In this document: positions 42,401 to 46,581 of the stretch, one piece after another
Position numbering within the stretch: the first letter of the stretch is position 1
How the letters are laid out: every line of letters begins with the position of its first letter
NCBI RefSeq assembly: GCF_000011905.1
Contig: NC_002936.3
Location: forward strand, 496,001 to 560,000
Origin: Dehalococcoides mccartyi 195
Lineage (GTDB): Bacteria > Chloroflexota > Dehalococcoidia > Dehalococcoidales > Dehalococcoidaceae
Direction of reading: 5' to 3'
DNA: 64,000 nt
Position numbers and translations under genes: made by a program
The notes under the pieces: model-generated
Told to the model about the DNA's origin: nothing
Database searches by the model: none
The model's input: the letters and a program-made list of their open reading frames with translations, nothing else

Positions 42401-42685
42401 TTATATAAACTGTACTTTTATACGTGTTTTGTTGTCGCGGATATCTGCATTCATACCCCTGAGGGCACACCACAAGCGGTATGAATATGGGCCGATAAGC
42501 AAGAGGAAGCGGCCTCTGCCGCTTGACCAGGTCAGTAATATAGCCAGCAGCATGAAAGGTGCAAATACAATCATTAGTGCCAGTACAATGGGATATATCA
42601 GGAACAGCGGCAGTATCAGCGGAAAGCTTCCGCCGCCCTTGCCGAATGGTATTCCCGCCCAAAGAAGCATAGGTGGCCAGTACAT
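42401..42685 (-). CDS. Small membrane protein of the DUF2089-SHOCT operon
   Basis: This 94-residue protein has one or two hydrophobic helices rich in Leu, Ile and Phe (PLILPLFLIYPIVLALMIVFAPFMLLAILL) and a basic C-terminal part. No catalytic motif is visible and I recognise no named family. Its stop and the SHOCT gene are 15 bases apart, and its ATG shares bases with the DUF2089 stop, which points to a joint function at the membrane. Confidence 0.68.
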   Translation of the reverse strand: MYWPPMLLWAGIPFGKGGGSFPLILPLFLIYPIVLALMIVFAPFMLLAILLTWSSGRGRFLLLIGPYSYRLWCALRGMNADIRDNKTRIKVQFI

Positions 42686-43059
42686 TATCTTTGCAACCTC
42701 CTTAGAGCTTCGTCTACTGAGATTCCGCCTTTTTCCAGTTCTGCCAGTACATTATCATCTTCGTTGGTTGCGGGTGGGGTGGGAAAGTTTTCAACAAAGC
42801 TGAAATTTGCCCCTATCCGCTGCAGGCGGTTTTTCACGGTGGGGTAACTGATACCGAAGAACTTTTCCATGTCCTTTATAGAGCCGTGGCATTTTACAAA
42901 GGCCATTACAAACACCTGGTCTTCAGCAGAGAGTCTGGCCAGAGCAGGCAGCTCAAAGCTTCCCTCAATGGCAATGCCTGAAGATGCCAGTTTGACCCGC
43001 TCAACCGTTATGGTTGCTCCCTGGGTGAGCCTGGTCAGTTCCTGCCAGTCTTTTGCCAT
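42685..43059 (-). CDS. DUF2089-family regulator
   Basis: This 124-residue protein has a helix-turn-helix-like segment (LSAEDQVFVMAFVKCHGSIKDMEKFFGISYPTVKNRLQRIGA) typical of DUF2089, and a C-terminal SHOCT-like helix (DDNVLAELEKGGISVDEALRRLQR). It probably regulates this operon. A GTG at 43068 lies inside the ribosome site; ATG 43059 has GGAGG eight bases upstream and is the better start. Confidence 0.8.
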   Translation of the reverse strand: MAKDWQELTRLTQGATITVERVKLASSGIAIEGSFELPALARLSAEDQVFVMAFVKCHGSIKDMEKFFGISYPTVKNRLQRIGANFSFVENFPTPPATNEDDNVLAELEKGGISVDEALRRLQR

Positions 43060-43097
43060 ATTGTGCACCTCCGGGTAGTTATTTAACTTATATCAGT

Positions 43098-43209: not shown

Positions 43210-43239
43210 AAAAAACGGCTTCGGAATTTCCGAAGCCGT
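43210..43239 (-). terminator. Terminator of the FtsZ-like gene
   Basis: A 12-base perfect inverted repeat (ACGGCTTCGGAA/TTCCGAAGCCGT, 43215-43239) followed by TTTTTT on the minus strand, 24 bases after the FtsZ-like stop. Confidence 0.9.
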
Positions 43240-43263
43240 CAAAGTGCCGTGGTGTTTTAATGG

Positions 43264-44442
43264 TTATTCAAGCAGGGAAGGAATATCTCTGCTGAGTTCA
43301 TCAATATCTCGCCGCCTGTCCGCCAGGTCAGCCTGACGCTGCTTGATTACGGGCATCATGCTGGTGGAGCGGTTGTAGTAGTAGCGTACCCTCTCAAGGT
43401 CCGACAGCTCTGAGAAGATAACGGTTACAGTCATGGTGTCTTTTTCGCGGGGGTAGTCACCGTTGCGGATAATGGCATTCGGTGCCATCTCACGCAGCCA
43501 GTCACCCTGTTCTTTTATGATATCCATATTTATTTCTTTGGCAGGGGCGGAAATAAGGAACAGCGCCCGTCCGGCATCACGGGGGTCAATCTTGAGCGAA
43601 AGCTCACTTACGGCTTCATCCATAGCCCGGATACCCTTGTAGTTGGAAACGCTCTTCATCCGGAAATGGTCAGTTTTATCAAAGGGCAGGGTCAAGGTGC
43701 GGACGCGGGCCTTGCCGTGACCGATAACCGTCCAGCCGGAAATGGTCTGGATGATATCACCGGCATCCATAGTCTTGGCACCGATGTACTTGGAGTTCTT
43801 TTCTTCACCGGCACACAGCAAATCCCAGAAAGGCTCAACAATCAGGGAGTTTATCTTGGAAAGGTTGTAGCGGAGTGAAAAATCCTTGCGGACATAACGC
43901 TGGTTTTCCACCAGTATAACCGCATCTGCAACCGAACTGATTGATTTTAAGCAGACAGCGGTATTGTAGACGGTGCGCTCTTCGGTTTTCTCCTCATGCT
44001 CAAAGGGCAGGGCTATCAGGGCATAAACCGGTTTGTCCATGTAGCGCTCTTTGATATGCTGGGCGATAATGGAAACCGAACCTGAACCGGTACCGCCGGC
44101 CGCACCGGCAATAACCAGAAAACCGTCTGCATCATAAAAACGCTTGGTGGTGCGCAGGGCATCTATAACCTTGTCGGCATCTGCTCTGGCAATTTCAGCG
44201 CCCAGTTCATTTATTTTACCTACCCCATGGCCGCCGGTTTTACGCCCGCCGATAAGTATGCGGTGCTGGTGGTCAGGTTTGATGGTGACCAGACCTGAAA
44301 GGTCAGCCTGGTCGGTGTTTACGGCGAACACTCCCGGGCAGATACTCACGTTACGCTGGGAGCGGGCTCTTTTATCCATACGGGCAAACTCATCCGCTAT
44401 GCGGCTGCCGCATTGCCCAAGACCGATTACAATTAATTTCAT
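43264..44442 (-). CDS. Divergent FtsZ/tubulin-family GTPase
   Basis: This 392-residue protein starts MKLIVIGLGQCGSRIADEFAR, a Rossmann-type nucleotide fold, and carries the tubulin/FtsZ signature AGAAGGTGSGSV near residue 113. Further along, TMDAGDI near residue 225 keeps the DxxD of the T7 synergy loop that drives GTP hydrolysis between subunits. The rest shares little with ordinary FtsZ, and the C-terminal FtsA/SepF-binding tail is not seen; it ends in a charged helix region (RQADLADRRRDIDELSRDI). So this is an FtsZ-like paralogue of unknown job, not clearly the division FtsZ. It has its own promoter and terminator and sits next to gap. GTP use and polymerisation are inference. Confidence 0.82.
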   Translation of the reverse strand: MKLIVIGLGQCGSRIADEFARMDKRARSQRNVSICPGVFAVNTDQADLSGLVTIKPDHQHRILIGGRKTGGHGVGKINELGAEIARADADKVIDALRTTKRFYDADGFLVIAGAAGGTGSGSVSIIAQHIKERYMDKPVYALIALPFEHEEKTEERTVYNTAVCLKSISSVADAVILVENQRYVRKDFSLRYNLSKINSLIVEPFWDLLCAGEEKNSKYIGAKTMDAGDIIQTISGWTVIGHGKARVRTLTLPFDKTDHFRMKSVSNYKGIRAMDEAVSELSLKIDPRDAGRALFLISAPAKEINMDIIKEQGDWLREMAPNAIIRNGDYPREKDTMTVTVIFSELSDLERVRYYYNRSTSMMPVIKQRQADLADRRRDIDELSRDIPSLLE

Positions 44443-44466: not shown

Positions 44467-44495
44467 ATTCTAAACTAATAGCTTTAGCATGTCAA
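44467..44495 (-). promoter_or_regulatory. Promoter of the FtsZ-like gene
   Basis: Minus strand TTGACA (44490-44495), 17-base spacer, TAGAAT (44467-44472), with GGAGGA just before the ATG. A near-consensus promoter for a single-gene unit. Confidence 0.8.
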
Positions 44496-45561: not shown

Positions 45562-46581
45562 TTATAGGTTTATCTGTTTTTTGGCCTTAAGCATATCCAA
45601 AAAGGCCTCAAGCCGGGTTTTCTGATGCTGGTTTAAATGAAAATCTGCGTTGCCTTCCAGAGTGAGCATGGGAAGCGGCAGCTTTTGCCTCAATATAATA
45701 TCACCGATAGCCCGATGACAGAAAGCCTGAACATAATGGATTATGCCGTCTATGCGGCGCTTAGTGAGCTGGGTCCGGATATCCCTTAAGCGGTATTCCA
45801 TGGGGTAGGGGTAAGTATAAGCGGTGTAAGACCGGGAGATATCAGCACCGCCTTTGGGCAGGCTGAACTGCCGCTGGATTTCATTAAACACCACTCTGGC
45901 TCCGTTTTGCTCAAGGTAAGGGTAAAGCTCCTGCCCGAATACCGAAGGCACACCCAGATAAGCCAGCCGTAGTTCGGTCGGGGGGTAAGGGGTGCGGTTC
46001 TCCGCTGTATTCAGGAGTTTCTGAAGGTCGGCTTGGTACTTTACATAATCACTATTAAAATCTGAACTGGATACCAGCCAGTAGTGGTCTTCAAAACCGG
46101 ATACTTTGTTTTCGGCATAACACAGGTAGTCCAGCCTGTGTGCCAGTTCTCTGGCGGGACTAAGTGTTTTCCGCCATTCTTCAGCCGCCTCAAGAGTAGT
46201 GCCCAGCCTGAGGGCCAGTTTTGACAGAGATGCTTTTACCTCCGCGGGGTTGGGTTCGGTGGGGAAGTCAAAGGGAATAGTGCAGATACCTTTTAGGTTT
46301 AAAACTTCCCTTAGCATCTGGGTGTTTGAGCAGTCACCGCTGGTTACACAGATAACCTCACTGATGCCTTTATCCAGGCAGACACCGTAAATGCCTTTTA
46401 TCCAGGCACAGCAGTTTAAGGGGAAGCCGTCTTTTTCAGCCAAGCGGATAAGCCTGTCAGGATTTGTATCTGAAACGAAAATATTATTCAGGTCCAGCGG
46501 GCTGTAACCGGCTGAAAGCAGTATTTCTATGGGTACAGTGGTGGTAATGCCGATGTATTTGGGGTGCTCGTTATTTTTCAA
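45562..46581 (-). CDS. 2-hydroxyacyl-CoA dehydratase D-component-like (HgdB/DCCP-type) protein
   Basis: This 339-residue protein resembles the D component of 2-hydroxyacyl-CoA dehydratases and the BcrB/BcrC subunits. Conserved-looking cysteines are C57/C58 in LNCCAWIKG, C84 in TSGDCSNTQ and C288 in VQAFCHRAIGD, the three positions where the family binds a [4Fe-4S] cluster. Further cysteines (C68, C78, C100) lie in the same N-terminal part. No A component or dehydratase partner is adjacent. Homodimeric single-gene relatives include the double-cubane cluster proteins that work with an HgdC-type activase; that role is inference. The start is TTG at 46581 with a weak ribosome site. It lies between eno and gap, which share its strand. 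Confidence 0.8.
   Translation of the reverse strand: MKNNEHPKYIGITTTVPIEILLSAGYSPLDLNNIFVSDTNPDRLIRLAEKDGFPLNCCAWIKGIYGVCLDKGISEVICVTSGDCSNTQMLREVLNLKGICTIPFDFPTEPNPAEVKASLSKLALRLGTTLEAAEEWRKTLSPARELAHRLDYLCYAENKVSGFEDHYWLVSSSDFNSDYVKYQADLQKLLNTAENRTPYPPTELRLAYLGVPSVFGQELYPYLEQNGARVVFNEIQRQFSLPKGGADISRSYTAYTYPYPMEYRLRDIRTQLTKRRIDGIIHYVQAFCHRAIGDIILRQKLPLPMLTLEGNADFHLNQHQKTRLEAFLDMLKAKKQINL

Follow-up and report, generated by a model that had tools for sequence, protein, structure and literature searches.

The cetZ-A gene lies in the window, the whole 64,000-nucleotide stretch analysed here, which spans bases 496001-560000 of a closed chromosome of 1,469,720 bases. Its product almost certainly belongs to the CetZ family, taken in the broad sense, and not to FtsZ, and its predicted structure has the tubulin/CetZ fold. 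The reading towards which we lean is that of a filament dependent on GTP and associated with the membrane, to which its C-terminal tail would tether it, and which would shape wall-less cells.

Family assignment and gene organisation

The product of cetZ-A, a gene that probably corresponds to DET0589 as mapped by gene order, matches the Pfam domains Tubulin (E = 1.3e-33; 117 bits against a cut-off of 33 bits) and CetZ_C (E = 8.3e-17; 61.6 bits against a cut-off of 21.6 bits), with no Pfam match to FtsZ_C, and its score of 65.3 bits on the ftsZ equivalog model does not reach the cut-off of 295.2. The nearest sequences in the PDB are CetZ1 and CetZ2 of H. volcanii (PDB codes 4b46 and 4b45; 5e-42 and 2e-28, respectively). 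Structural comparison of the AlphaFold2 (AF2) model (pLDDT 85.4, pTM 0.85) using Foldseek and VIA placed the three solved CetZ structures in the top three positions, headed by CetZ1 (4b46; VIA Z of 45.2, 1.6 Å over 326 residues) and followed by Z values of 44.0 and 37.7, while the best FtsZ structure gave a VIA Z of 34.8. The tubulin/FtsZ superfamily membership proposed in the earlier note is thus borne out by both the Tubulin match and the model, and its suggestion that the product is an additional cytoskeletal filament distinct from FtsZ, or a protein of cell shape, pointed to the right neighbourhood, which is more exactly the CetZ family.

In a tree of 79 proteins, constructed with TubZ and tubulins left out, cetZ-A groups with archaeal CetZ, and FtsZ is split off by a 100/100 branch. 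Archaeal CetZ and the archaeal-type CetZ of bacteria nest together in a 99/97 clade that excludes cetZ-A. The divergent bacterial kind that includes cetZ-A displays weak unity of its own (56/74), and the root of the tree is uncertain owing to the long FtsZ branches. A search for a separate canonical ftsZ revealed two ftsAZ loci in the same genome, each ftsZ being located beside an ftsA. The protein also branches apart from FtsZ, so that the refuting outcome named in the earlier note, a position within the FtsZ clade in a genome lacking any other ftsZ, does not apply.

The GGTGSG signature and the T7-loop DxxD, which reads DAGD, were both found as previously described, at the exact places given in Table 1, and the strength of the Pfam Tubulin match indicates that these motifs are not due to chance. 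The nucleotide loop and the T7 acids are both intact. Asp-229 aligns with Glu-218 of H. volcanii CetZ1, which we take to be the position of the published GTPase mutant. Across 92 bacterial relatives, conservation in the nucleotide loop is 92/92 for G116, 82/92 for T118 and 89/92 for G119, and for the T7 acids 80/92 (D226) and 90/92 (D229). The catalytic motifs are retained in 78 of the 92; 13 of the 14 proteins in which a motif is missing are also tailless.

Table 1. Features of cetZ-A and its flanking signals (positions within the window)
Feature	Position	Strand	Description or basis
cetZ-A	43264..44442	-	CetZ-family tubulin/FtsZ-superfamily GTPase by sequence, 392 aa, intact ORF
Putative sigma-70-like promoter	44467..44495	-	TTGACA-17-TAGAAT, 11/12 by consensus scan
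Intrinsic terminator 3' of cetZ-A	43214..43240	-	12-bp stem plus T-run
GGTGSG codons, residues 116-121, nucleotide phosphate loop	44080..44097	-	sequence
DAGD codons, residues 226-229, T7-loop acids	43756..43767	-	sequence and alignment to CetZ1
DIPSLLE codons, residues 386-392, FtsZ-CTP-like C-terminal peptide	43267..43287	-	

The reading frame starts with ATG, has a GGAGG Shine-Dalgarno sequence immediately 5' and, together with its promoter-like site and terminator, is present as first described. The idea that cetZ-A forms its own transcription unit holds in part: the promoter-like site and the terminator support it, but gap is located on the same strand 93 bp upstream and no terminator-like site was reported between the two genes, so that read-through or co-transcription from gap is possible. 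Downstream of cetZ-A, also on the reverse strand, are a gene for a DUF2089 helix-turn-helix protein (42685-43068) and a small ORF with no Pfam match (42401-42685), which have a promoter-like site of their own at 43126-43098.

The gene order eno-hgd-gap-cetZ-dnaX-ybaB-recR is conserved across many families, and the adjacency of gap and cetZ is kept in about ten, which points to an old synteny. A functional link of cetZ-A to gap, eno or dnaX was considered and rejected, the arrangement being read as order-wide housekeeping synteny. The gene between gap and eno (45562-46581, reverse strand in the window) occupies this position in six families, and its product is presumably of the 2-hydroxyacyl-CoA dehydratase (HgdB-like) type.

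The C-terminal tail and its candidate receptor

The protein terminates in ...RDIPSLLE, preceded by a variable linker of ~30 residues, so that, contrary to the earlier statement, an ending that resembles the FtsZ C-terminal peptide is present. On a matrix built from 33 FtsZ tails (DVPSFLR) of the same class, the DIPSLLE tail scores 11.8, compared with 6.35 for the best of 937 unrelated C-termini and a median of 22.8 for true FtsZ. It differs from the FtsZ peptide [DE][VI]P[SA]F[LM]R in having L in place of F and E in place of R, and is devoid of the arginine that ends the FtsZ motif; the two FtsZ copies of this genome display DVPSFLR or EVPSFMR. The motif [ILV]P[STVNK][LV], located within the last ten residues, is found in 73 of 92 divergent CetZ versus 2 of 937 background C-termini, and in none of 35 archaeal CetZ or 10 bacterial CetZ of the archaeal type. 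Pro-388 is invariant (81/81), while the linker preceding the tail is variable (mean entropy of 2.6 bits). The consensus of the bacterial tails is [DE][ILV]P[ST]LL; on the FtsZ matrix 55% of them exceed the 99th percentile of the background and 39% its maximum, a value surpassed by 0.6% of shuffled tails. The tail of the paralogue CetZ-B, SIPSLL, scores just 3.65. Judged from its conservation, the cetZ-A tail is probably a docking site for a membrane tether.

Of 44 genomes searched, 40 have FtsA above the cut-off, whereas SepF had no match in any of them and was rejected as a tether. In one genome (family f13, L107) ftsA, ftsZ and cetZ are consecutive. The absence of SepF, the nearly constant presence of FtsA and this gene order make FtsA the leading and likeliest candidate for the receptor of the CetZ tail. 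The genomes in which FtsA is missing or below threshold include three whose CetZ is of the archaeal type (G063, G094 and G218), and a fourth, G262, has a tailed CetZ in an assembly from which both ftsA and ftsZ are missing.

Paralogues, coiled-coil genes and distribution

A second gene on the same chromosome (G000:C1:954162-955310) encodes CetZ-B, which is 57% identical to the cetZ-A product. In families f3, f4, f6 and f9 two cetZ genes and two coiled-coil genes, in the order cetZ, cetZ, coilA, coilB, constitute one cluster adjoining gap, and family f55 retains cetZ-coilB-coilA. The coilA products are long (425-900 aa across the set) and those of coilB short (~130-250 aa). In Dehalococcoides, coilA is convergent to cetZ-B (G000:C1:952732-954069), although coilB was not found in that genome. 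The coilA proteins display a C-terminal motif, R[LM]xxLxxM[YFL], in which R, L and M are invariant in 14 sequences. Profiles detected coilA in 22 of the 52 genomes searched, all 22 CetZ-positive, and coilB in 20 of 294, including five in which no CetZ was detected; such profiles may match unrelated coils, so that more weight is given to gene adjacency and to the C-terminal motif than to the scores. The coiled-coil partners could not be assigned to known proteins, as the only Pfam match at E < 0.01, to SKA1, was sub-threshold.

A different coiled-coil protein (617-913 aa), with an N-terminal KPLPQILDEMD and a hydrophobic, anchor-like C-terminal segment, adjoins the second ftsA-ftsZ in several Dehalococcoidales (L234:3741-5933, L235:3980-6721, L236:3645-6131, L237:3644-6079, L238:3854-5707, L239:3372-5396 and L240:3636-5576) and is possibly an EzrA/ZipA-like partner of FtsZ.

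Several of the degenerate CetZ are the second paralogue in families f25, f67 and f75, an arrangement suggestive of pairs with one active and one inactive member. Candidates for such pairing are the loci (L090, L092, L093, L103-L106, L123, L125 and L127) that comprise a second, tailless CetZ with a broken GGTGSG and often a broken T7 loop, in genomes that also have an intact CetZ. In Dehalogenimonas-like genomes the CetZ (L047, L048 and L049) is degenerate, with a GTAGGTAA loop and no tail, and CetZ_C had no match in the Dehalogenimonas-like genome G189; the system looks dispensable there.

CetZ_C was detected in 67 of 294 Dehalococcoidia genomes, and in a sample of 350 genomes of the phylum all 22 matches belong to this class. 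Two kinds of CetZ occur in Dehalococcoidia: the divergent kind, represented by cetZ-A and often present in two or three copies per genome, and the archaeal type, present in other families. Such a pattern would be explained if CetZ had entered the class at least twice. The loci L172-L179 and L005-L016 carry archaeal-type CetZ with no FtsZ-like tail, suggestive of transfer from archaea.

MreB is present in 133 of the 294 genomes, none of them among the 67 with CetZ (Fisher p = 2e-21), and a PBP transpeptidase in 135 of 294, with one doubtful overlap with CetZ (p = 4e-20), but these p-values overstate independence because peptidoglycan loss in the class is described as one event (PMC10284905, PMC10608941) and transitions are few. 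The lone PBP match (G220:C2:1538-2551) is located near a contig start, in a genome with no MreB whose sister genome has no such match, and it probably reflects a contaminating contig. CetZ is not obligatory in wall-less genomes, being absent from 92 of 158. The confinement of both CetZ kinds to the wall-less side is stronger evidence than the p-values.

Proposed role and comparison with known systems

Based on its sequence and model, the cetZ-A product very probably forms filaments. The fold and the intact nucleotide and T7 loops suggest that CetZ-A would bind GTP and polymerise head to tail, with hydrolysis occurring once the T7 acids of a subunit come into contact with the GTP bound by the following one. 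Tail conservation suggests that the C-terminal peptide would dock as that of FtsZ does, with FtsA at the membrane as the likeliest receptor; tail-FtsA binding is a simple biochemical prediction of this reading. Gene order suggests that CetZ-A and CetZ-B may act together, possibly co-assembling, and that the long coiled-coil proteins may be bundling or linking partners of the pair. The distribution is consistent with a filament that would provide shape or envelope organisation to cells that have lost MreB along with peptidoglycan, a role comparable to that of CetZ in archaea without a wall. Whether shape rather than division is the main role of CetZ-A we consider evenly balanced. A broader scheme is tentative and, taken as a whole, rather doubtful: wall-less Dehalococcoidia would have swapped MreB for a CetZ pair with an FtsZ-mimicking tail on FtsA and dedicated coiled-coil bundlers, some families having an active/inactive tubulin-like heteromer in which one partner has neither GTPase motifs nor tail. 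If bacterial CetZ tracks the loss of peptidoglycan and MreB, and bears an FtsZ-type ending in place of the archaeal one, it would offer an independent test of the purpose of CetZ, the shaping of wall-less cells, and CetZ might explain in cytoskeletal terms why Dehalococcoides cells are disc-shaped.

For the tail itself, an unlikely alternative is that it was inherited from a CetZ of the archaeal type, or that it acts as a protease tag or as a hook for the coiled-coil partner, CetZ forming cytoplasmic or bundled filaments independently of FtsA. In archaea, too, CetZ has a short hydrophobic ending ([LIV]xPLF in 27 of 35, compared with 0 of 92 divergent bacterial relatives), of which the bacterial tail may be a drifted form. 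The tail of FtsZ serves several partners, and FtsA is present in some genomes whose CetZ is of the archaeal type and untailed. The bacterial motif nevertheless corresponds to that of FtsZ at each position (D-I-P-S-[FL]-L), while on the FtsZ matrix none of the archaeal CetZ tails rises above the threshold set by the background. An accessory role in division, with the tail competing with FtsZ on FtsA or joining it there and the ring being co-constructed in wall-less cells, instead of a role in setting cell shape, is a proposal that we consider about as unlikely. It accommodates an FtsZ-CTP-like tail in genomes with FtsA and no SepF, the lineage in which cetZ directly follows ftsA-ftsZ, and the transcript network in which DET0589 appears with DET0636, both called FtsZ (PMC5102406). 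However, cetZ is located outside the ftsAZ cluster in nearly all genomes, the genus already has two complete ftsAZ sets, FtsZ is kept where CetZ_C is unmatched (G189) or CetZ is degenerate, and in archaea those CetZ whose phenotypes are known function in motility and cell shape (PMC9856176).

Hydrogenase and formate-dehydrogenase-like genes are linked with DET0589 in the same network (PMC5102406), and some archaeal cetZ adjoin envelope and pilus genes (PMC9856176), as might be expected of a scaffold for envelope or respiratory complexes, such as the S-layer or reductive dehalogenase assembly. That role is improbable, since conserved neighbours of this kind are missing around cetZ and its spread over many families of Dehalococcoidia extends beyond the organohalide respirers. 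The earlier note also raised the idea of a plasmid-partition relic; TubZ, which would be the model for it, shares the fold, but the idea is scarcely credible: cetZ-A is chromosomal, in housekeeping synteny over about ten families, a plasmid search with CetZ matched haloarchaeal CetZ only and no bacterial plasmid, and TubZ is a weaker structural match to the model than CetZ. A viral origin was likewise rejected, a scan of viral contigs with the protein, which detects close relatives only, revealing no relative.

The occurrence of CetZ-like proteins in Dehalococcoidia, the same class and kind of protein, is already published: the main text of Santana-Molina et al. 2023 (PMC9871819) devotes one sentence to it, reporting a CetZ_C match and sparse paraphyletic groups, and one sentence to a C-terminal model, and that main text does not describe the tail motif, the pairing, the coiled-coil partners or a link to the loss of wall and MreB. 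No account of the tail, of the coiled-coil partners or of a link to wall loss was found in the open-access main texts consulted, and Brown and Duggin 2023 term CetZ archaea-specific (PMC9856176). What appears to be new is the FtsZ-CTP-like tail, the distribution among genomes devoid of MreB and, with one doubtful exception, of PBP, the coiled-coil linkage and a bacterial clade outside archaeal CetZ.

TubZ, BtubA/B and other tubulins share the superfamily fold with cetZ-A, and BtubA/B likewise form a pair of paralogues in bacteria and have a protein partner, but these proteins give lower structural and sequence scores and cetZ-A has no plasmid or Prosthecobacter-type context. Both FtsZ copies of the genome have the same superfamily fold, GTP loop and DxxD and also end in a C-terminal peptide, in their case DVPSFLR or EVPSFMR, whereas cetZ-A is ~25% identical to FtsZ at best, contains CetZ_C instead of FtsZ_C and is located off the ftsA cluster. 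CetZ1 and CetZ2 of H. volcanii and the CetZ of Methanosaeta thermophila (3zid) resemble cetZ-A in the combination of Tubulin and CetZ_C, in fold, in GTP loop and in T7 acids, and archaeal CetZ likewise occur as more than one paralogue per cell, under an envelope without peptidoglycan. In contrast to them, cetZ-A is bacterial, ~30% identical and outside the archaeal clade, ends in DIPSLLE rather than [LIV]xPLF, and is linked to coiled-coil genes.
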